A stretch of DNA of 34,538 bases from Candidatus Poribacteria bacterium (GCA_009839745.1 VXPE01000070.1:88445-122982); one strand, 5' to 3'. Shown: positions 5,167 through 30,679, numbered from the stretch's first letter. Numbers and translations: made by a program. The notes: a model not told the origin generated them from the sequence alone.

Positions 5167-5250
5167 GCCTGTAACGCAGTAGAAGGCGGATTTAAGAAAG
5201 GCAATTCAACATGAAACCCATTTCATTTCTCCGCAAGGTAAAATTAAAAA
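5167..5250 (+). repeat. Gene-start repeat, copy 1 (box A + box B)
   Basis: The box A hairpin has stem GCCT (5167-5170) and AGGC (5184-5187) around the loop GTAACGCAGTAGA, followed by GGATTTAAGAAAGGC, whose AAAGG serves as ribosome binding site for the ATG at 5211. Box B (CCGCAAGGTAAAATTAAAAA) lies at 5231-5250, inside the reading frame of the NfeD-type protease. The stem sequence differs from other copies but stays paired. Confidence 0.75.
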
Positions 5251-6734
5251 ATGTGTTCCTGTTTATCGGATGTCTTTTCATGACGGGCGGTCTGTCCGCT
5301 CAGGACGCCGCGCTGGTTTACGTGATTGACATTCGGAACGAGATCGGGAGCGGACTCGGGACCTATATCAGTGACGGCATCCAAACAGCAGAGGCGGCTG
5401 GTGCCGACGCTATTGTTTTCGATGTGGATACACCGGGCGGCAGGGTAGATTCCGCTGTGAATATCATCCGGTCTATCCAGGATACACAAGTTCCAACAAT
5501 CGCTTTTGTCAATCGACAGGCTATATCTGCGGGAGCGATGATTTCTATCGCTTGTAATCAGATTGTTATGACTTCGGGCGGAACGATTGGGGATTCCGCG
5601 CCCGTTAATATTCAAGGACAAGAGGTCGGAGAAAAGGCAATCTCTTATATTCAGGGAACCATTCGTGCGACGGCAGAACGCGAGAACCGAAACCCGGATA
5701 TTGCTGAAGCGATGGTAGACAAAGAACTCGTCCTCGTAAAACTCACAGACGGTCAGATTATCAAACTCCTCCCCGAAGAATACATTGCGCGTGAAGAAGA
5801 AGGCGAGGAGATGGAAATCCTCTGTGCCCAAGGAAAACTGCTCACGTTATCGACGCAACAGGCATTAGAATACGCGTTCGTAGACGCACAAGCCGAAACC
5901 CTCACGGAACTATTGGCACAATACGAGATTGTCGAGGTTGATGGGACCAAACTGCCGCTCACAGAAGACGGCATTGCACAACGACAGCAGGATATTGGTA
6001 TTTCAGAAATTAACCGTCTCAAAACGTTAGCAGGCGCGCGTATTATCGAAGTTGAGGCGACACTCGCCGATAGGATTGTTTTCTTTATCACGAATCCGCT
6101 CATCAGTTCGCTTCTCCTTTCATTGGGAATCCTGGGTATCTTTATAGAGATCCGGACACCCGGTTTCGGTATCCCCGGATTCCTCGGTTTACTGTGTGTC
6201 GGACTTTTCTTCGGTGGACACATGCTAACGAAAATCGGTGCAGAATGGGCATTTCTACTCTTTCTGATCGGTCTTGGACTTATCGCCGTAGAGGTCTTCG
6301 TCATCCCCGGCTTCGGTGTTGCTGGTATTCTCGGCATTACATTGATGTTAGGGAGCGTCTTCTTCGTTTTCGACAAGGCTTATGAGTTCCGGACCGCGGT
6401 GATGTGGCTCTCAGTCTCTGTAATCTTGAGTGGCGGACTGGTGATTCTCGCGGCTTTTCTCCTTCCCGAGACGCAGCTGTTTCGGAGGCTTGCTTTGTCA
6501 ACAGTGATGGATACCCAGATGGGGTATCACTCGTCGAGTTCGGAGGATTTTCAGGCGTATCTCGGACAATCTGGGACCGCCCTAACGCCTTTGCGTCCCT
6601 CTGGCACGGCTCGCATCGCTAATAATAGGGTGGATGTCGTCACGGTTGGCGATTTCATCGCACAAGATAGCACCGTCAAAGTCGTAAATGTGGAAGGTCC
6701 CAAGGTGTTCGTAGAAGCCGTTGAAGATGATTAA
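5211..6734 (+). CDS. NfeD-family membrane serine protease (long form, SppA/ClpP-like)
   Basis: Long NfeD proteins pair a ClpP-like Ser/Lys protease domain with membrane helices and an OB-fold, and act with flotillins/stomatins in membrane quality control. The 507 residues start with a signal peptide (about 1-30, ending GGLSA). The protease domain (about 33-250) contains DTPGG at 73-77 and the nucleophile Ser106 in AISAGAM; Lys142 is the candidate catalytic base. Four or five membrane helices occupy about 282-420, and an NfeD OB-fold about 440-507. The n-region RKVKLK is encoded by box B of the gene-start repeat. A sigma70-like promoter lies upstream. It heads a cluster with a short NfeD and two flotillins, the classical partners, which supports the call strongly. 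Confidence 0.9.
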   Translation: MKPISFLRKVKLKNVFLFIGCLFMTGGLSAQDAALVYVIDIRNEIGSGLGTYISDGIQTAEAAGADAIVFDVDTPGGRVDSAVNIIRSIQDTQVPTIAFVNRQAISAGAMISIACNQIVMTSGGTIGDSAPVNIQGQEVGEKAISYIQGTIRATAERENRNPDIAEAMVDKELVLVKLTDGQIIKLLPEEYIAREEEGEEMEILCAQGKLLTLSTQQALEYAFVDAQAETLTELLAQYEIVEVDGTKLPLTEDGIAQRQQDIGISEINRLKTLAGARIIEVEATLADRIVFFITNPLISSLLLSLGILGIFIEIRTPGFGIPGFLGLLCVGLFFGGHMLTKIGAEWAFLLFLIGLGLIAVEVFVIPGFGVAGILGITLMLGSVFFVFDKAYEFRTAVMWLSVSVILSGGLVILAAFLLPETQLFRRLALSTVMDTQMGYHSSSSEDFQAYLGQSGTALTPLRPSGTARIANNRVDVVTVGDFIAQDSTVKVVNVEGPKVFVEAVEDD

Positions 6735-6754
6735 TTTTTTGCTGGGTCGATTTG

Positions 6755-6780
6755 ACCGAACCGCAAGGAAAAATTAAAAA
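6755..6780 (+). repeat. Gene-start repeat, copy 2 (box B only)
   Basis: ACCGAACCGCAAGG followed by an A-rich tail ends directly at the ATG of the short NfeD gene (6781). The AAGGA at 6766-6770 is the only candidate ribosome binding site. Box A is missing; a 4-bp hairpin GGTC/GACC overlaps the left edge. Confidence 0.7.
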
Positions 6781-7266
6781 ATGATGTGGTTTCTCATCTT
6801 CCTGATAGGCATTGGAATCCTGTTAGTATTCATTGAGTTACTCATCCTTCCTGGATTTGGAGCAGCAGGGGTGCCGGGGGTTCTGCTTATATTGATAGGT
6901 GTTGGGATCGCCTGGTGGAAATTTGGATTCCAGACGACTCTCACTTATACGGGGGCAACGCTGATAGGCGTTATACCACTGGCGATTGTAGGGTTATCTG
7001 TCATGCGTGCAACGCCTGCCGGTAAAACCTTTATCTTGGGAAAAACGCAAAATAAGGCAGAGGGTTTTCACGCCCCCCCATCGGAATTGGAAAGTTTAGT
7101 TGGGAAGTCGGGTAAGGCATTGACCCCGCTGCGTCCCGCAGGGGCTGCGCTTATCAGTGGAAACCGTGTCGATATTGTCACGCAAGGCGAATTTGTTCCG
7201 GCAGAGACCGAAATTGAAGTAATTTTTGTAGAAGGCAGTCGTGTGGTCGTTCGTAGTTTACAGTAG
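6781..7266 (+). CDS. Short NfeD-type membrane protein
   Basis: This 161-residue protein has three N-terminal membrane helices (about 3-25, 28-48 and 55-78) with the LPGFGAAGVPG loop seen between NfeD helices. It ends in an OB-fold NfeD domain (about 92-161) with GKSGKALTPLRPAGAALISGNRVDIVT, closely similar to the C-terminal domain of the preceding long NfeD. There is no protease domain. Short NfeD proteins are usual neighbours of flotillins and are thought to stabilise or localise them. The gene begins right at the end of a box B repeat. The next gene starts 9 nt after its stop, and that gene's AGGAGG overlaps this stop. Confidence 0.88.
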   Translation: MMWFLIFLIGIGILLVFIELLILPGFGAAGVPGVLLILIGVGIAWWKFGFQTTLTYTGATLIGVIPLAIVGLSVMRATPAGKTFILGKTQNKAEGFHAPPSELESLVGKSGKALTPLRPAGAALISGNRVDIVTQGEFVPAETEIEVIFVEGSRVVVRSLQ

Positions 7267-7275
7267 GAGGCAGAT

Positions 7276-8181
7276 ATGGTGGATCTATTTACAGGGGGAA
7301 TTGCCCTTGTTGTCCTAATTTTTGTTATCGTGTTCTTTTGGTTCGTCCCCATTGGATTGTGGATTGCCGCTGTTGCAGCGGGTGTCCCGCTCCGAATTTT
7401 TGACTTGATCGGGATGCGCCTCAGACGCGTGAACCCCAATGTTATTGTGAAGGGATTAATCAGTGCACACAAGGCTGGATTGAAAGTCGTGACGGCTGAA
7501 TTAGAGGCGCATTACCTTGCGGGCGGTAACGTCCTCAATGTTGTCAGTGCGCTCATCGCCGCAGATAAAGCGAGAATTGCGTTAAATTTTCAACGCTCGG
7601 CTGCTATAGACTTGGCTGGACGGGATGTCTTTGAGGCAGTTCAGGTCAGCGTCAATCCACGCGTGATCACGACTCCGAAAATCAGTGCGCTCGCTTTAGA
7701 TGGCGTTGAATTGATAGCCACCGTGCGTATTACAGTGCGCACGAACATCAATCGGCTGGTTGGCGGTGCGGGTGAAGAAACGATTATCGCGCGTGTCGGT
7801 GAAGGGATTATCAGCGCAATCGGTGCCTCTGAAACTTATGAAGATGTGCTTGAAAACCCAGACATTATCTCGAAAACGGTGCTTGACCGTGGCCTCGATG
7901 CTGGGACCGCTTTTGAAATCCTTTCCATTGATATCGCTGACGTCAACGTTGGCAAAAATATCGGTGCGGAACTCCAAGCCGAGCAAGCCGAGGCAGACTT
8001 GGTCGTCGCACAAGCAAAGGCAGAAGAGCGGCGTGCTATGGCAGTCGCTCGGAAGCAAGAGATGACCGCAGGTGTCCAAGAGATGCGTGCGAAAGTTGTT
8101 GAAGCGGAAGCGCAAGTCCCGCGTTCCTTGGCAAATGCGTTCCGTGAAGGAAACTTGAACGTTAATACGGAGGAATCGTAA
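7276..8181 (+). CDS. floA: FloA-type flotillin-like protein, first copy
   Basis: FloA proteins scaffold functional membrane microdomains at the inner membrane. The N-terminal hydrophobic hairpin (about residues 8-40, [17 protein letters not shown]) and the segment [15 protein letters not shown] are diagnostic. An SPFH-like region follows (about 45-215, with [19 protein letters not shown]), then an Ala/Glu-rich coiled coil (about 225-285). At 301 residues it is about 30 shorter than typical FloA, missing part of the C-terminal tail. Strong AGGAGG site. It is clearly paralogous to the next gene, 3 nt away, so a tandem duplication is likely; the two may form mixed oligomers. Confidence 0.9.
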
Positions 8182-8183
8182 AC

Positions 8184-9215
8184 ATGGCACCAACAATGGT
8201 AGCAATTATTGCTGTCCTGCTTATCCTGTTTATCATTATTATTAGTTGGCTGGTTCCGATCGGTCTTTGGATTACTGCCATTGCCGCCGGTGTGAAGGTT
8301 GGGATTTTTGATCTCGTTGCGATGCGTTTACGGCGTGTCCCCCCCGCGGCGATTGTAGAACCTCAGATCAACGCAACGAAAGCAGGCTTAAATCTATCGC
8401 TGGACGATCTGGAAGCCCATTTCCTTGCTGGCGGGCGCGTTGCGAGTGTCGTATCGGCACTGATTGCCGCGGATAAAGCCAACATAGATCTCGGTTTCGC
8501 GCAGGCTGCCGCAATTGATCTTGCGGGTCGAGATGTCTTGCAAGCCGTTCAAGTTAGCGTTACGCCTGAGATTATAGACATTCCCAGTAGAGATGATCCG
8601 AGTATCGGTATTACGGCTGTCGCCCGTGACGGTATCCAGTTAATCGTGAAAGCGCGTGTTACGGTGAGAGCCGATATTGACCGACTCGTCGGGGGTGCGA
8701 CTGAAGATACAATCCGTGCGAGGGTTGGCGAAGGGATTATCACGACGATCGGTTCATCAGGGAGCCACAAGCAAGTCTTGGAAAACCCGGTGCTCATCTC
8801 AGAGACGGTGCTCGCAAAGGGCTTAGCTGCGGGAACTGCTTTTGAAATTTTGTCTATCGACATCGCCGATATAAATGTCGGTGAGAATGTCGGCGCGAAA
8901 TTACAGACCGACCAGGCACAGGCTGAACTCAAGATCGCACGTGCGAAAGCCGAAGAACTTCGCGCACGCGCACAAGCGGAAGAGGAAGAGAATAAAGCGT
9001 TGGTCGAAGAGATGACCGTCAAGCTGATTGAGGCAGAAGCGGAGGTACCACTTGCCATCTCGGACACCTTTGATTCCCAGCGGATGAGCGTGATGACGTA
9101 TTATGAACTCCGTAATATCCTTGCGGATACAGAGATGCGTCAATCCATCGCTTCACCCGGTGGCACGCAAGAGATAGACACAACGCGGTCTGCACACTCA
9201 CTCGGATTTTCGTAA
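8184..9215 (+). CDS. floA: FloA-type flotillin-like protein, second copy
   Basis: A 343-residue paralogue of the preceding gene with the same order: N-terminal membrane hairpin (about 8-42, [16 protein letters not shown]), [10 protein letters not shown], an SPFH-like region (about 50-240) and an Ala/Glu-rich coiled coil (about 250-295). It keeps a C-terminal tail (about 296-343) that the first copy lacks, and a small insertion around residues 130-145 ([11 protein letters not shown]). A GGAGG site in the end of the previous gene precedes the ATG. The full tail suggests this is the ancestral-type copy and the first is derived, though the direction of duplication is inference. Likely forms detergent-resistant scaffolds with the NfeD proteins encoded upstream. 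Confidence 0.9.
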
Positions 9216-9324
9216 AAGGGTTATCAGTTGTCAGTCGTCGGGAAGTTTTAAAGTCTCTGTAGAGTTGCGAAGTGTTCTAAAGTTGTCAATACCTTTACGG
9301 ATTTTAGCACACTTTTTAGAAAAA

Positions 9325-9417
9325 GCGCGTAGCTTGAAACGAAGTGGAAAGCGGGTATACGGAAAGCAACATTAAAACCCTATGCCCACTCACCGAACCG
9401 CAAGGAAAAATTAAAAA
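9325..9417 (+). repeat. Gene-start repeat, copy 3 (full length)
   Basis: Box A stem GCTT (9332-9335) and AAGC (9349-9352) encloses GAAACGAAGTGGA. An outer CGTA/TACG helix can also form (9328-9331 with 9357-9360). Box B (ACCGAACCGCAAGG plus A-rich tail) at 9392-9417 ends exactly at the ATG at 9418. Stem GCTT/AAGC replaces GCCC/GGGC of other copies, a double compensatory change. Confidence 0.8.
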
Positions 9418-9888
9418 ATGGAAAGTATCATTCAGATGCTGGCACCGCTGATTATCGTGATCCTGATCTCTATCTTGAGCAATGCGCGTCGACGGAAAGC
9501 ACAACAACGGGATGCGGAGAGAAAAGGGGGCGAGCGTGCGATGTCGGAGAGCGACGATACACCCCCGCCTTTCATGGAAGACTTTCCGTTTGAGACACAA
9601 CTGGAGCAGATGATTCTGCAGGAGGACGAAAAAGAGGAGACCTCGCCCGTGGTTGCCGAAGAGCCAGCGCGTCCTGAAGCAGAACAGTCTGGTCCGGTCG
9701 TCGAAGAACCGCAACCACAACCGCCGCCAGTGCCTGTGGAATCCCCGACCAGAATTCGGTCCGTCCCCGGGACATCCCTGCTGAACTTATCGCCGCAAAC
9801 TTTTCGTCAAGGCATTATTCTTTCAGAGATCCTGGGTCGTCCGAAATCACGCCGAACAAGCCAACGGTCAGCCACCAACCGTCAGTGA
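9418..9888 (+). CDS. Membrane-anchored small protein with acidic/proline-rich linker
   Basis: The 156-residue product has one N-terminal membrane helix (about 4-20, IIQMLAPLIIVILISIL), a basic stop-transfer segment (ARRRKAQQR), a low-complexity acidic and proline-rich linker (about 40-112, including QPQPPPVPVE) and a conserved-looking C-terminal element, TFRQGIILSEILGRPKS (about 128-144). I know this C-terminal motif from short hypothetical proteins of several bacterial phyla but know no function for it. It follows the flotillin genes on the same strand with its own repeat leader, so it may be part of the microdomain operon; that is inference. Confidence 0.65.
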   Translation: MESIIQMLAPLIIVILISILSNARRRKAQQRDAERKGGERAMSESDDTPPPFMEDFPFETQLEQMILQEDEKEETSPVVAEEPARPEAEQSGPVVEEPQPQPPPVPVESPTRIRSVPGTSLLNLSPQTFRQGIILSEILGRPKSRRTSQRSATNRQ

Positions 9889-9906
9889 CAAGGAAAAATT
9901 AAAAAA
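9889..9906 (+). repeat. Box B 3' half, solitary
   Basis: CAAGGAAAAATTAAAAAA follows the TGA stop of the preceding gene directly. Upstream, AACCG at 9877-9881 is separated from CAAGG by seven bases, as if a box B had been split by a short insertion that contains the stop codon. Confidence 0.5.
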
Positions 9907-9913
9907 CCGGAAC

Positions 9914-10005
9914 GCGCACCTCGTAATGAAATGGAGAGTGGATATACGGAAAGGCACCCCAAATGCCAAAACCTGCCTCACTGAACCGCAAGGAAAAATT
10001 AAAAA
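9914..10005 (+). repeat. Gene-start repeat, copy 4 (overlaps amidase gene)
   Basis: The box A loop GTAATGAAATGGA (9923-9935) is flanked by CTC and GAG (3 bp). GGATATACGGAAAGGC follows, and its GGAAAGG is the ribosome binding site for the ATG at 9963. Box B (CTGAACCGCAAGG plus tail, 9981-10005) lies inside the reading frame and encodes residues LNRKEKLK. Confidence 0.75.
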
Positions 10006-12140
10006 TCCTTTTGATTTTTCTGTTGTTTGTGGGTTGTTCTCAACGCCAGACCCCTGTGGAACAGCAGGCTTCATTTCACTTTGAACCTCCCCCTTATACC
10101 CGGCATCTCAAAGGTTTCAAAATTTGTTTGGACCCCGGACACGGCGGACAAGCGCACGTCCCAGATTACAAACGGGGTCCCACAGGCGTTCGCGAAGCCG
10201 AGGCGAACCTACGGGTCGCACTCTATCTACGCGAGATGTTACAGAAAGTCGGGGCTACCGTCGTCATGACGCGCGTTGACGATTCCTATGTGAGTCTGTC
10301 GAGGCGGAGTGAAATTGCCAACGAAAATAGTGCCGATTTTTTCATCTCGCTGCACCATAACGGGATTGATAATCCGAAAGTTAACTATACCTCTACTTGG
10401 TATCATGGCGATGCGGATGACTCACGCCAGAGTCTCGACCTTGCTCGGTATGTCCAGCAGGGAGTCTCAGACGCACTCCAATTGCCCACTTCTCCTGCAT
10501 CGGGACTTTATTCGGATAAATTAATAACGACTTCCGGTTTTGGGGTCCTGCGACTGACAGAATGTCCAGCAGTGTTATGTGAGGCATCTTTTCTCTCGAA
10601 CCCAGAAGAAGAAGTAAGATTGCAAAAGGACGACTATCTGAGAAGGGAAGCCTACGGCTACTTTCTTGGGATTGCCCGTTATGTTGAAGGCGGGTTTCCG
10701 AAAGGTGTTCTGGTCGATCCGCAACACGCCTCCGTCATCCAAACGAAAACGCCGCGCCTCCAGATTCAGGTGATGGACGGACTCCATGAGCGGGGGGCGT
10801 GGATGCTCAAACGTCAACAGGTCTTCACGGACTCCATCCGTGTCAAGATTGATAATGTGGATGTCCCCTATTCCTACGACCGCGGGACAGATCTGATTAC
10901 TGTCTCCCTTGATAAACCCTTATCGAACGGTGTGCATCTTGTCCAGACTGACTTAGTGAACTATTATGGGAATCACAGTCTCCCCGCGCCGCAATGGTTT
11001 AAGGTGGCACCGCCTGCTGCGGTATTGGACCTCACGGCGTGGACAGATACCCTCCCTGCTGAGGGAAAAAGTTACGTCGGTATCTCTGTAACTACACGGG
11101 ACAATGAGGGAATGCCAATTGCTGACGACGAACCGATCTACGCACAAACATCAAACGGGACGCTCGCAGCGGATCATCGACTCTCAAAGGACGGTTCAGC
11201 ACAGTTTTATCTATACGCGCCCGATGCGCCGGGCACAGCAACGGTGGAAGTCTCATATCAACAGACCCGTCAGTCGTTGACGATTCACTTCGCGAACATT
11301 GATGGCGCGATTGTGCAAGGACAGGTTTCTGATGCAGACTCCGGAAAACCGATCCAAGATGTAGAATTACGAACCGATTCAGGATTGACGACGACTACAG
11401 ATGCCGAGGGACACTTTTTTATTCTAACAGGTTCCGAATCAAAGGATTTTGGCGAAACGACGCTTTACATTTCCGTAGGGGTTGGGGCACCCAACCCCTA
11501 CTATCCCAACAAACACAGGATTCACATCCGACCGAATCAAGCAACAATTGTTGATGTCGGACTTCACCCGATTGCAGAAGGGGCGTTTGCTTCGACCGTC
11601 ATCGTTCTCGATTCAAAAACGGATACGCCTGAGACCCAAGAACTTCTCACAACGTTGGAAAAGATGTTGAAACTCGCTGGGGCAAAGGTTTATAATATTT
11701 ATACTGCTAAGTCAAAAATGCCTGTGCAAAAACGGATAGAGAAGGTTAACGCCATCAAGGAGAGCGGATACTATTTGCAAATTAATCACGCGGAATGGGA
11801 TAAGGAACAACCCATTGTGGTAGCGGCACACTACCGAGGCAATCAGGGGACAGAGACGTTTCTAAAGCGGATACTTGAACAGTTCAACAGGAGTCTCTAT
11901 GAGACCCCGATTGTTACCCTTCAAGACAGAACAACCCCTGAAATTCAGCAGACGAACAAAATGGCGATGACACTTGAAATCAAATCCTTGAATCATCCGA
12001 ATGCTTCCACCGTTTCGGAAGTGCATGCGATCTTTTTCGGGGCATGGGCTTTCCTGAAGAGTGATGGAGAAATTCCGATAGAAAGACAAAAGCGGTTTAT
12101 GGCATACTTAAAAGAGAGGCAAGCGTCTTCTTCTAATTAG
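9963..12140 (+). CDS. Lipoprotein N-acetylmuramoyl-L-alanine amidase with degenerate second amidase domain
   Basis: This is a zinc amidase (Amidase_3) that should cut the MurNAc-L-Ala bond of peptidoglycan in the periplasm. The N-terminus is a lipoprotein signal: basic NRKEKLK, hydrophobic core, lipobox LFVG-Cys25. The catalytic domain (about 52-243) has zinc ligands His60 (DPGHGG), Glu78 and His131 (SLHHN), and catalytic Glu207 (VLCEASFLSNPE). Beta-rich regions follow: about 255-345, an invasin/Big-like domain about 350-445 and a carboxypeptidase-regulatory-like domain about 447-520. The C-terminal part (about 542-712) resembles a second amidase fold keeping His609 and Glu672 but lacking DPGH. 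A 27-nt perfect hairpin is embedded in the coding sequence. The 725 residues are about twice the size of simple amidases. A dipeptide epimerase follows, fitting murein peptide recycling. Confidence 0.88.
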   Translation: MPKPASLNRKEKLKILLIFLLFVGCSQRQTPVEQQASFHFEPPPYTRHLKGFKICLDPGHGGQAHVPDYKRGPTGVREAEANLRVALYLREMLQKVGATVVMTRVDDSYVSLSRRSEIANENSADFFISLHHNGIDNPKVNYTSTWYHGDADDSRQSLDLARYVQQGVSDALQLPTSPASGLYSDKLITTSGFGVLRLTECPAVLCEASFLSNPEEEVRLQKDDYLRREAYGYFLGIARYVEGGFPKGVLVDPQHASVIQTKTPRLQIQVMDGLHERGAWMLKRQQVFTDSIRVKIDNVDVPYSYDRGTDLITVSLDKPLSNGVHLVQTDLVNYYGNHSLPAPQWFKVAPPAAVLDLTAWTDTLPAEGKSYVGISVTTRDNEGMPIADDEPIYAQTSNGTLAADHRLSKDGSAQFYLYAPDAPGTATVEVSYQQTRQSLTIHFANIDGAIVQGQVSDADSGKPIQDVELRTDSGLTTTTDAEGHFFILTGSESKDFGETTLYISVGVGAPNPYYPNKHRIHIRPNQATIVDVGLHPIAEGAFASTVIVLDSKTDTPETQELLTTLEKMLKLAGAKVYNIYTAKSKMPVQKRIEKVNAIKESGYYLQINHAEWDKEQPIVVAAHYRGNQGTETFLKRILEQFNRSLYETPIVTLQDRTTPEIQQTNKMAMTLEIKSLNHPNASTVSEVHAIFFGAWAFLKSDGEIPIERQKRFMAYLKERQASSSN
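11475..11501. repeat. 27-nt perfect hairpin inside the amidase gene
   Basis: GTAGGGGTTGGG (11475-11486), loop GCA and CCCAACCCCTAC (11490-11501) form a 12-bp perfect stem. It is translated in frame as part of VGVGAPNPYY at the edge of the regulatory-like beta domain. Its length is nine codons, as expected for an inserted palindromic repeat tolerated in a loop. Confidence 0.7.
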
Positions 12141-26817: not shown

Positions 26818-26905
26818 TTAAAATGTGTCAAGCAATTCTGTAGTCGAGGTTTGCAAACCGATATTGCAAATCAGATATGCTGGATTAAGAAGGAACCTTC
26901 CCAGA

Positions 26906-29900
26906 ATGTTACCCATATCTCGAGCGATTTTCTCTCACGCATATTTATTATATTTTTTGATGCTCACGCTGAACCTGTCTATCCAGCATATACATGCAGC
27001 GGATCATGAAGGCAAAGGGAGCACCTCCCTTCCATCTGTCAACAATTCGATCCGCGAAGTCCAGACATTGATATTAGGGACACCGTCAACAAAAACCTTC
27101 AGTTTTTTAGATGTTTACCACATAGCACTCAGTCTAAATATATCAGGTAATATTGAACTGATCGCTACAGAGGGGGATGTCATCACCGTTACGCTTGAGA
27201 AGCAGGCACGGAAAACCACAAATACAAAACAGGACGATCTGATTCGCGACTATCTTGATAGCATCACCTTTACAGGAACGCACAGCGGTGACACACTTCA
27301 GTTAAGGATACAACTATCCAACAATTCCTCTGAAACACAGCCGAACTCGCTTTCTAATGCGGAAGCGTTACAAGCCGCCCGCTATGATGGACTCCAACTG
27401 AAATGTAGAATTAAAACGCCAGCGGATGTCTCTGTTCAGCTCCACACCAAAACTGGGGACATCTCCCTTCAACGTATCCGTGGGAAAATAGAAACTTCGA
27501 CAGAGACAGGGAACGTCCATTTAGATGAAACCGTAGGTAATTATAACGTCCGTGTGACCAAGGGCAACATTGACGGGAAGATCTTGCTGACCCATGGACA
27601 AAACAAATTAGAGACCCAAAACGGCTCAATTGGACTGGAGGTCCTTGACTCCGTTGCATCACCGATGGATATAACCGCCCAAGCGGGTAGCATCCGTTTA
27701 CGACTTCCCGAAAATTATGCCGCGGATGTTGAACTTGAGAGTGAGAAACAGCAGATTGTTGTCAATTTGCCCGCACAATTTGACGAGGTGACGGGATTGA
27801 CTATTATTAACGACGGTGGACCTTTGTTTCGCCTGAAAGCCACCACCTTGATTTCACTTCTACCGAGTGCATCAAGCAGCAATACATCCGCAGATACTGA
27901 AACGGATCTCACCATAGATTTCGCGCACCCCGTCCCGCAAGTAGCACAACCGCCCACTATTGATGGAAATTTATCTGAAATCGTGTGGCAAGCAGCGGCG
28001 CGACTCTCTCCGCTCCAAAACCCAGATGGCACGGAGGTGCCAAGCAACGCAACTGAAACTTTTTTAATGTGGGATGCCGAGAATTTCTATGTCGGGGTAA
28101 AGGCACATTTGTCTGACTCGCTCCTTCTGTATGTTTCACAGACCCAACACGATTCGCCAATTTGGGAAGACGAGTGTATTGAAATTCTGATTGACCCGAA
28201 TCCGAAAACCGATGTCTATTATCACCTCGTTATTAATCCGATTGGCGCGTATTTTGATCAGCAGGTGAATACACCCGGAGAGCCGAGTTTCCAGTTCGCG
28301 CCTCATGATGTCCAACTCACTTTAAATCGGAAAACGCTGCAAACGGCATTCAAGGCAAATAGCGCGTGGAATTCAAATGCAAAAGTTGCGAGTCAAATTA
28401 ACGCTGCTTTTTGGAGCCTTGAGGTCGCTTTTCCGCGTAAAATGTTGGAACCTGCTCCTAAGATGGATCCGCAGTCGACTTCGTCTTTTGAAAACAAGTG
28501 GCTTTTTAACATCCACCGTAAGATGCACAGCAGCAATATGAAGAGCCTCATTCCTGCTACGTCCAGAGAATATAGCTACTGGCTGCCGATTTACGATACC
28601 GAGCGTCCATGGTGGCCCCACACGCCACAGGAGTATACGGGTCCGCTTGCCGGACGCTATGGTCCAGCAATGGGAATTTTGGAATTCATTACGACACCAC
28701 TCGCTTCCGAAGACTTCGCATCCAAAACCAAGGTCCGGGTCGCGACTATTGAGATCAAAGGCAACACTACTATTTCGACAGAGGCTGTTCAACAAGCCCT
28801 TCCGATTCAGGTTGAAGATGTTATCACAAGTTCACAACTTTCTTGGCTCATCGCAGAATTGCAGGAACAGGGTTGGTTCCAAGATGTGCGTTTGGAAACT
28901 CAGCAAGTCGATGTTGCCAATGCAGAATCCATCAGCAGTCAGCAAGCGACTGGGAGACAAGATTGGAAGGATGGAAGACTGGTAGATGGGGTAACATACC
29001 CAATCTTCCCTTCTTTCAACCCTCCAATCAATTTGCATATCCGAGTTACGGAAGCCCCCGTGCTTTTTGCGCAGCAAATTAAGATCGAAGGGAACAGGAG
29101 CTTTCCTTCACGATTCATAAAGGAGTGGTTTCAGTTAGAATCCGGCTATCTTGCCGTTGCGATTGTTAGACTGAAAGAACGATTAATTGCTGATTTTTAC
29201 GCAAATCGCGGATATGAATTCGCCACTGTTACACATCGAATTGACAACGATGTCCTTGAATTTAGCATTGACGAGGGGACACTACACGAGATTCGTTTCA
29301 CTGGGAACAGTCGAATCCCGCGGGCGGAACTGTTGTCGGCACTTAACCTCAGCACTGGAAATGGTGATGGAGAAGGAGGTTCACAAGCCTCGGATATTTA
29401 CCATCACGCGCTGGGTCAATCGAAAATAAACGGTCTGCGCCAGGAACTCAGCAAAAACAGTGAACATTTCAAATCGGTTCGGAATTGGCATGTTCAACGT
29501 GAGGGTGGAAAAAACGTCATGATTATTGACATTGAAGAGCAACCCTTCGCGAGACCTGGTGGTTTCCCGATTCTTCAATTTAATCGTGTTCACGGATTAA
29601 TGCTTGGCGCGGGAGGGACGCTCTCGACGCAGCTCACGGGTAAAGAACGGGTTTTCGGCTCAATAAGTCATGGATTTTCCAGCAAAATATGGAACTACCA
29701 CGCCGGTATCGAGAAAGGGTTCTTTAAACGGCAGCTGCTCAAATTCGGAGGGGGGTTCTATAAACTCACGGATGTCAGTTCCAATCTCTATCTACATCAA
29801 GGTGAGGCTTCTCTGAGTGCCAGCTATTACGGTTCAGCACTTCAGGATTATTATCAACGTCAGGGCGCACAGGGATGGATAACTTACGCGCTATCAGAGT

Positions 29901-30679
29901 GGTCGTATCTTAGGCTGGAGTTTACTGGGGAAAGACACGACAACCTTTCCAAATCTACGGATTGGAGTTACTTAAACCGAAATCTAATCAAGCGGGGCAA
30001 CTCACGGATTAATCGTGGACAATTGAGGAGTCTTTCTCTCGTTTATGCGTTCGATACACGGGACCACAGATCGACGATCACACGGCATTTCCACACACTG
30101 TTTTCTGCGAATGAGAGGACTCGGCGGGGATGGCGTGGTCAATTCGCGGTTGAAATAGCCGGGAACAGTTTCGGTGGGGACCACGCCTTCAATTTCTATC
30201 GGTTTGAGTTGGCACGCTACACACCTGTATCCGGCGCACACCATCTGAACGTGCGGATTGCGGGTGATTTTTCCGATGCTCCCTTGCCAAGGCAACGGCT
30301 TCTCCACCTTGGGGGCGGTAATACCCTGCGCGGTCACGATTCTAATGTGTTCGCTGGGGATAATCGGTTCCTGATTAACCTGGAGTATCGGTTCATCAAA
30401 GAAACAATTCCCAATGAACAAGATGGTGTCTTGGGATGGACCCTCAGTTGCTTCATGGATGCGGGTCGTGTGTGGTGGTATGATGATGCCCCCTTTTCTG
30501 ACTTTGAATATTTCATGACCCAGTTGGAGGCATCTGTTGGGATTGGAGGCTCCATCTTTTGGGATCCTTTCGGGAATCCCGAACCGTGGAGTGTCGCCCT
30601 TGAAGTGGCAGAACCCCTTAATTCGTCTTTTTCCTTACGAAATCCGAGCATCATTTTACGTTTAGGACGCATGTTCTAA
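26906..30679 (+). CDS. DUF4097 + CBM9-like + POTRA + Omp85 barrel fusion protein
   Basis: I start at the ATG at 26906 (1257 aa; AAGGAA 11 nt upstream) because it gives a clean signal peptide ending HIHA-A near residue 31; a GTG at 26825 gives a longer N-terminus without one. Domains in order: DUF4097-like repetitive beta region (about 75-330; TGDISLQRIRGKIETSTETG), CBM9-like domain (about 348-590; IDGNLSEIVWQAAARL, EDECIEILIDPN), POTRA 1 (about 608-668), POTRA 2 (about 714-785), POTRA 3 (about 789-875) and an Omp85/BamA-TamA barrel (about 885-1257). The barrel has FDTRDHR, GGGNTLRGHD (the LRG motif of the L6 loop) and a C-terminal Phe. Omp85 proteins insert or export outer-membrane or lipid-linked cargo. 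The N-terminal fusion suggests a cargo- or glycan-binding module. Barrel and POTRA calls are firm; the DUF4097 call is less so. Confidence 0.82.
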   Translation: MLPISRAIFSHAYLLYFLMLTLNLSIQHIHAADHEGKGSTSLPSVNNSIREVQTLILGTPSTKTFSFLDVYHIALSLNISGNIELIATEGDVITVTLEKQARKTTNTKQDDLIRDYLDSITFTGTHSGDTLQLRIQLSNNSSETQPNSLSNAEALQAARYDGLQLKCRIKTPADVSVQLHTKTGDISLQRIRGKIETSTETGNVHLDETVGNYNVRVTKGNIDGKILLTHGQNKLETQNGSIGLEVLDSVASPMDITAQAGSIRLRLPENYAADVELESEKQQIVVNLPAQFDEVTGLTIINDGGPLFRLKATTLISLLPSASSSNTSADTETDLTIDFAHPVPQVAQPPTIDGNLSEIVWQAAARLSPLQNPDGTEVPSNATETFLMWDAENFYVGVKAHLSDSLLLYVSQTQHDSPIWEDECIEILIDPNPKTDVYYHLVINPIGAYFDQQVNTPGEPSFQFAPHDVQLTLNRKTLQTAFKANSAWNSNAKVASQINAAFWSLEVAFPRKMLEPAPKMDPQSTSSFENKWLFNIHRKMHSSNMKSLIPATSREYSYWLPIYDTERPWWPHTPQEYTGPLAGRYGPAMGILEFITTPLASEDFASKTKVRVATIEIKGNTTISTEAVQQALPIQVEDVITSSQLSWLIAELQEQGWFQDVRLETQQVDVANAESISSQQATGRQDWKDGRLVDGVTYPIFPSFNPPINLHIRVTEAPVLFAQQIKIEGNRSFPSRFIKEWFQLESGYLAVAIVRLKERLIADFYANRGYEFATVTHRIDNDVLEFSIDEGTLHEIRFTGNSRIPRAELLSALNLSTGNGDGEGGSQASDIYHHALGQSKINGLRQELSKNSEHFKSVRNWHVQREGGKNVMIIDIEEQPFARPGGFPILQFNRVHGLMLGAGGTLSTQLTGKERVFGSISHGFSSKIWNYHAGIEKGFFKRQLLKFGGGFYKLTDVSSNLYLHQGEASLSASYYGSALQDYYQRQGAQGWITYALSEWSYLRLEFTGERHDNLSKSTDWSYLNRNLIKRGNSRINRGQLRSLSLVYAFDTRDHRSTITRHFHTLFSANERTRRGWRGQFAVEIAGNSFGGDHAFNFYRFELARYTPVSGAHHLNVRIAGDFSDAPLPRQRLLHLGGGNTLRGHDSNVFAGDNRFLINLEYRFIKETIPNEQDGVLGWTLSCFMDAGRVWWYDDAPFSDFEYFMTQLEASVGIGGSIFWDPFGNPEPWSVALEVAEPLNSSFSLRNPSIILRLGRMF
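28961..29029. repeat. 69-nt imperfect palindrome inside the Omp85 gene
   Basis: Two 33-nt arms (28961-28993 and 28997-29029) are 26 of 33 complementary, separated by the loop ACA. The arms begin with GATTGGAAGG and end with CCTCCAATC. The element is 23 codons long, keeps the frame and lies in the linker between POTRA 1 and POTRA 2. Confidence 0.65.

Follow-up and report, generated by a model that had tools for sequence, protein, structure and literature searches.

The Omp85 superfamily is divided by N-terminal architecture into ten subfamilies, with forms other than POTRA among them, in the passages of PMC4104836 that were searched; neither a toastrack nor a CBM9 domain is listed for the ten in those passages, and the words "carbohydrate" and "Poribacteria" are absent from the main text of that paper. 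Patatin-, WD40- and metallophosphatase-Omp85 proteins are known (PMC4104836, PMC11116518), so the premise from which the original prediction started, that Omp85 proteins normally carry only POTRA domains, was too strong. In the open-access literature we found no paper joining DUF4097 with Omp85, or POTRA with CBM9. The protein described here, from Candidatus Poribacteria, carries both extra modules on one chain and apparently represents an undescribed Omp85 subfamily that extends the known superfamily.

The window is a stretch of 34,538 nucleotides (GCA_009839745.1 VXPE01000070.1:88445-122982). As shown in Table 1, it contains a complete gene whose frame runs uninterrupted from an ATG start through 1257 codons and a stop. 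An alternative in-frame GTG start lies upstream at 26825, and stops abound when the opposite strand is read in register with it. By sequence, the N-terminus of the protein lacks a lipobox cysteine. The domains named in the original prediction were all correctly called; each passed its Pfam gathering cut-off: DUF4097 (residues 74-283) barely, at 24.0 against 22.9, CBM9_1 (residues 352-440) at 31.3 against 23.4, POTRA in three stretches at 65.7 against 21.3, POTRA_1 (residues 611-665) at 26.1 against 23, and Omp85 (PF01103, residues 983-1214) at 32.2 against 24. The DUF4097 score is higher in relatives (38.2 in L057). The Pfam scan of the 1257-residue protein gave no match to a patatin domain and no WD40/PD40 propeller, and a PHROGs search with the protein returned no match. 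As in other members of the superfamily, a 16-strand PF01103 barrel is preceded by at least one POTRA domain (three here, lost in family f3), and an outer-membrane assembly or translocation activity is what we infer for the protein.

Table 1. The gene and its features, in window coordinates.
Feature	Position	Strand	Basis
Complete gene, toastrack-CBM9-3xPOTRA-Omp85 barrel, 1257 aa	26906..30679	+	ORF, Pfam, relatives
Predicted signal peptide, residues 1-32, with IHAA-D after the hydrophobic core	26906..27001	+	Hydropathy and sequence (inferred)
Toastrack (DUF4097) right-handed beta-helix, residues ~61-320	27086..27865	+	PF13349, AF2, Foldseek 4qrk
CBM9-type domain, residues ~345-600	27938..28705	+	PF06452, profile vs 1i82, Foldseek 1i82/7nwo/4jpq
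W420 codon (aligns with W71 of Thermotoga CBM9-2)	28163..28165	+	Alignment
W570 codon (aligns with W175 of Thermotoga CBM9-2)	28613..28615	+	Alignment
POTRA1, residues ~610-716, variable insert 668-706	28733..29053	+	Pfam POTRA_1, AF2 secondary structure
POTRA2, residues ~719-789	29060..29272	+	Pfam PF07244 724-791, AF2
POTRA3, residues ~795-878	29288..29539	+	AF2 beta-alpha-alpha-beta-beta; Pfam three POTRA stretches
16-stranded Omp85 barrel, terminal Phe, residues 882-1257	29549..30676	+	Pfam Omp85, AF2, Foldseek

Structure prediction recovered the toastrack, the CBM9 domain and the BamA/TamA-like parts, in keeping with the original prediction. In the full AF2 model (residues 60-1257, mean pLDDT 70.3), a beta-helix and a CBM9-like beta-sandwich were accompanied by three beta-alpha-alpha-beta-beta POTRA units and a barrel of 16 strands, with strands and units read by eye from the secondary-structure string. 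Against solved structures, Foldseek matched this model to BamA, Toc75 and TamA with E-values of ~1e-18 to 2e-21. A model of the N-terminal part (residues 50-610, pLDDT 75.7), in which the pLDDT of the toastrack beta-helix was mostly 80-96, matched the solved toastrack 4qrk (E 9e-8) and the CBM9 structure 1i82 (E 5e-6, TM 0.73 by target); its other Foldseek matches included the CBM9 entries 7nwo and 7nwn and a putative carbohydrate-binding protein, 4jpq. By sequence, the family profile also matched 1i82 (CBM9-2) with an E-value of 2.6e-7. By Pfam, Foldseek and, for CBM9, the family profile, the protein has both a CBM9 fold and a toastrack beta-helix fold. Because overall confidence is moderate (pTM 0.43), the placement of the domains relative to one another is unreliable in the AF2 models.

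The CBM9-2 domain of Thermotoga has two tryptophans, W71 and W175, that sandwich the sugar. W420 of the window protein aligns with W71 and W570 with W175 in an alignment by sequence only, in which the first half of the CBM9-2 sequence used agrees with the HMMER alignment to 1i82 and the two tryptophans fall at positions 71 and 175. W420 is kept in 34 and W570 in all 35 of the order members compared, among which H440, N535 and R538 show little or no variation. A CBM9 domain does precede a DUF5916 barrel in the same genome (L046:2038-4227), as the original prediction had stated for such proteins in general, and both sandwich tryptophans are missing from the CBM9-like domains of this DUF5916 protein and of phosphoesterases. 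Since W420 and W570 are conserved here yet missing from these related domains, glycan binding is plausible, and sequence comparison speaks for a functional sugar site in the window protein's lineage. The site is eroded in class-level members G054 and G059 and partly in G051, and the second sandwich tryptophan is gone in G052, the family f7 member. Given these losses, and the f3 proteins, which have neither CBM9 nor POTRA, the core function does not depend on binding a glycan.

All 85 Poribacteria genomes gave some match, and in 74 of them, from a table counted by hand, the whole architecture lies in one ORF. In three others the gene is broken at contig ends (G013, G049 and G083), three carry the short form of family f3, and five genomes of lower completeness gave weaker matches only. 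Because the whole architecture recurs in a single ORF in so many genomes, the gene is neither a frame open by chance nor a product of misassembly, and an assembly chimera was rejected on this ground. There is one gene copy per genome, and in the genome of the window the protein is the sole match to PF13349. The full architecture reaches two further Poribacteria classes (G060 and G061). Poribacteria matches in the genome collection (L066-L108) come from a scan built on the closer set of relatives, class-level members having been left out as too diverse.

The survey of the architecture that the original prediction called for thus found it phylum-wide in Poribacteria and in 0 of ~920 genomes of other phyla. 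Scans in which only the few top-ranking candidates of each genome were scored gave no full-length match among 132 genomes of the Zixibacteria/Calditrichota group (phylum of L116), 395 of the Gemmatimonadota group (phylum of L115) and 396 of the Acidobacteriota group (phylum of L120), or among 16 non-Poribacteria genomes with hits in the collection. Those collection hits, classed by eye, were metallophosphoesterase-CBM9, DUF5916-type and other CBM9 proteins, and the Acidobacteriota matches span the region from about POTRA2 onward and the barrel. As far as scanned, the protein has so far been seen only in Poribacteria. The nearest outside barrels among those found are POTRA-less proteins of ~590 residues in the Zixibacteria/Calditrichota group (E to 2.5e-61). 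These have a signal peptide and bactofilin-like repeats followed by an Omp85/DUF5686-like barrel; the repeats look like a bactofilin-type beta-helix, but the resemblance is weak (15.8 bits against a cut-off of 27.9). Barrel or CBM9 matches with E <1e-30, mostly to this ~590-residue barrel, occur in 99 of the 132 genomes of that group.

Surface adhesins are usually more variable at the N-terminus. Within the genus, identity to the window protein is 64% for the toastrack, 65% for CBM9, 64-70% for the POTRAs and 75% for the barrel, and in family f4 the corresponding values are 38, 40, 34-43 and 42%. Between families, the toastrack and CBM9 are 38-41% identical, compared to 29-51% for POTRA and barrel, and the only regions free to vary are one linker and the POTRA1 insert. 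With conservation close to that of POTRA and barrel, the toastrack and CBM9 look like integral parts and not like a fast-changing surface passenger. On a type V-like explanation, the toastrack and CBM9 would be displayed outside the cell, whether exported via its own barrel or by another route, with CBM9 bound to sponge matrix polysaccharide and the POTRAs and barrel acting as carrier. The order of passenger, POTRA and 16-strand barrel resembles type Vd, beta-helices are common among passengers, the sugar-site tryptophans are conserved and the bacteria are sponge symbionts (PMC3909097), but three POTRAs stand between the supposed passenger and the barrel, sequence variation in the N-terminal modules barely exceeds that in the barrel, and a single-copy core gene across the phylum is unlike typical adhesins. 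Moreover, the N-terminal patatin domain of PlpD, the type Vd prototype, remains periplasmic (PMC11116518). We regard surface display as unlikely.

The orthologues of family f3 are only 649-687 residues long and consist of a toastrack followed by the barrel (L062:6778-8841, L063:5969-7960 and L064:5674-7623). CBM9 and POTRA are absent from the f3 proteins, and none was seen in the neighbouring ORFs. Because the f3 barrels nest inside the window-protein family (support 98/97) and the outgroup families are full-length, the short form is most simply read as a loss, of exactly the CBM9 domain and all POTRAs. As f3 retains these two alone, the toastrack and the barrel are the constant pair, and f3 is the strongest single hint as to which parts perform the basic job. 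This finding also speaks for a different account of the N-terminal modules, that CBM9 and toastrack are only protein-protein scaffolds, CBM9 having ceased to bind sugar, and that the arm serves to recruit partners in the periplasm or to sense envelope stress, a role proposed for toastrack proteins of the Lia and Psp systems. Toastracks have been proposed as assembly surfaces in envelope-stress systems, where they would build membrane-proximal assembly or signalling complexes (PMC11237479), and the degenerate CBM9 sites of distant members fit such a role. On the other hand, the toastrack of the Psp system is argued to be cytoplasmic and not periplasmic (PMC11237479), and a pure scaffold need not keep the sandwich tryptophans, H440, N535 and R538 nearly invariant throughout the order. 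A purely scaffolding arm seems rather doubtful to us, if less so than surface display.

The genome carries six other Omp85 loci, and it keeps several accessory Omp85 barrels with differing periplasmic modules. A separate BamA, for which the original prediction had suggested looking, is present at C65 (TIGR03303, 400.6 bits against a cut-off of 297), C5 encodes a three-POTRA Omp85, and at C117 a POTRA-Omp85 directly follows a TamB-like ORF. The window protein scores 72.2 against the cut-off of 297.15 of the BamA equivalog TIGR03303, with three POTRAs where five mark BamA, and 14 against 625 bits for the TamA equivalog NF047950. As BamA and a TamA/TamB-like pair are encoded separately in this genome, the window protein is not the BamA of the phylum, and that assignment was rejected on its low TIGR03303 score and the true BamA at C65. 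An assignment as TamA was rejected on the low NF047950 score and because the TamB-like ORF adjoins the C117 Omp85 instead.

The three remaining loci lie at C54 and C91. C54 (L049:8418-11522) encodes Peptidase_MA_2 and a PD40 propeller fused to an Omp85 barrel, an arrangement like that of the WD40-Omp85 proteins except for a preceding protease-like domain. C91 (L050:5161-7572 and 9074-11029) holds two nearby Omp85 paralogues, the closer of which has ~29-37% identity to the window protein across the final POTRA and the barrel; one of the two has a POTRA match and, at its N-terminus, a weak DUF4252 match below the cut-off. Pairs resembling these paralogues occur in many Poribacteria genomes.

In family f1, the gene is flanked on one side by a divergent sugar-isomerase-like gene and on the other by YgfZ-TatT-DctP genes (named by eye), and in f2 YgfZ is the sole neighbour still shared. 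Elsewhere the neighbours are unrelated and none is conserved across families, and the idea of conserved operon partners was rejected for this reason. At 5211-9215 the window also holds a row of four genes that by eye resemble two NfeD-type and two flotillin-like (FloA-type) proteins and are apparent tandem duplicates. The neighbourhood bears on whether the barrel might handle glycolipid or polysaccharide in place of protein, with CBM9 taking a periplasmic saccharide that the barrel passes or inserts, replacing the LPS machinery. The C-terminal domain of LptD (PF04453) was not found in the genome, in which LPS export may, judged from sequence, be absent or divergent, and TAM has been discussed as a possible lipid conduit (PMC11014939). 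The absence of LptD carries little weight, however, because PF04453 matched only 2 of 14 control genomes, with diderms among those missed, and across families the gene has no conserved neighbour for the transport of glycans or lipids. We consider transport of a glycolipid or polysaccharide very improbable.

A link to type IX secretion was also considered. A 2014 paper (PMC3909097) described sorting tails in Poribacteria and reported that structural Por genes were lacking. A 2268-residue frame (G000:C42:96390-100313; L135-L137) resembles SprA, the T9SS translocon, in several collinear pieces (best E 6e-16, below the curated cut-off), and the same genome has 32 Por_Secre_tail matches. The window protein as the missing route for proteins with T9SS tails was dropped because this SprA-like ORF is present.

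The reading we prefer, though with something short of even confidence, is that of an accessory outer-membrane assembly or translocation barrel that works beside BamA and has a glycan-binding periplasmic arm. The protein would be exported by Sec and then form a 16-strand barrel in the outer membrane, with its N-terminal part kept in the periplasm: three POTRAs, then CBM9, then the toastrack. That the N-terminal modules lie on the periplasmic side is probable by analogy, from general POTRA topology and from PlpD. The conserved tryptophans suggest that CBM9 binds carbohydrate, and the toastrack beta-helix would provide docking surfaces. Most likely, the protein serves in the assembly or movement of some of the outer-membrane or surface proteins, and CBM9 may anchor the arm either to a glycosylated substrate or to a glycan of the periplasm, be it peptidoglycan or another whose ends are accessible; ligand and cargo are both presumed. 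The interpretation in the original prediction is partly supported, cargo capture and tethering to cell-wall or matrix polysaccharide being conjectural. A further proposal, which we advance as speculative and rather unlikely, is that the protein defines an additional, phylum-defining Omp85 subfamily in which a functional glycan module and the toastrack make a glycan-anchored or glycan-sensing translocon, with toastrack and barrel as its irreducible core. If true, outer-membrane protein assembly would be coupled to the state of periplasmic or surface polysaccharide. What distinguishes one Omp85 subfamily from another is the set of modules joined to the barrel, and the window protein represents an apparently further, phylum-wide one in dominant sponge symbionts, in which a bona fide CBM9 and a toastrack are added to a POTRA arm, with the natural deletion in f3 showing which pieces are separable. 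The ability of an outer-membrane assembly protein to read or hold a glycan becomes directly testable with it, and for an uncultured phylum it gives a specific point of entry to envelope biogenesis.

Several known systems share part of this architecture. The CBM9-2 domain of Thermotoga maritima Xyn10A (1i82) has the same fold, and both of its sugar-sandwich tryptophans have counterparts in the window protein; it sits in a secreted enzyme, whereas the window CBM9 belongs to an outer-membrane barrel protein. DUF5916 proteins likewise place CBM9 before an outer-membrane barrel, but the barrel is of another family, with no POTRA or toastrack match and without the sandwich tryptophans. The ~590-residue Zixibacteria/Calditrichota barrels (L129-L133 and L138-L141) gave no POTRA, CBM9 or toastrack match. 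The WD40- and metallo-Omp85 proteins (PMC4104836) similarly combine an Omp85 barrel with a non-POTRA periplasmic module, although the modules in these non-POTRA N-terminal architectures are not those of the window protein. Patatin-Omp85 proteins (PlpD and FplA; type Vd) also join a non-POTRA N-terminal domain, POTRA and a 16-strand Omp85 barrel in one chain. They are marked by a patatin (phospholipase) domain and a single POTRA, in contrast to the window protein, which has three POTRAs, a toastrack and CBM9 and no enzyme domain. With BamA and TamA it has in common the POTRA arm and the 16-strand barrel, and the extra modules set it apart from both.
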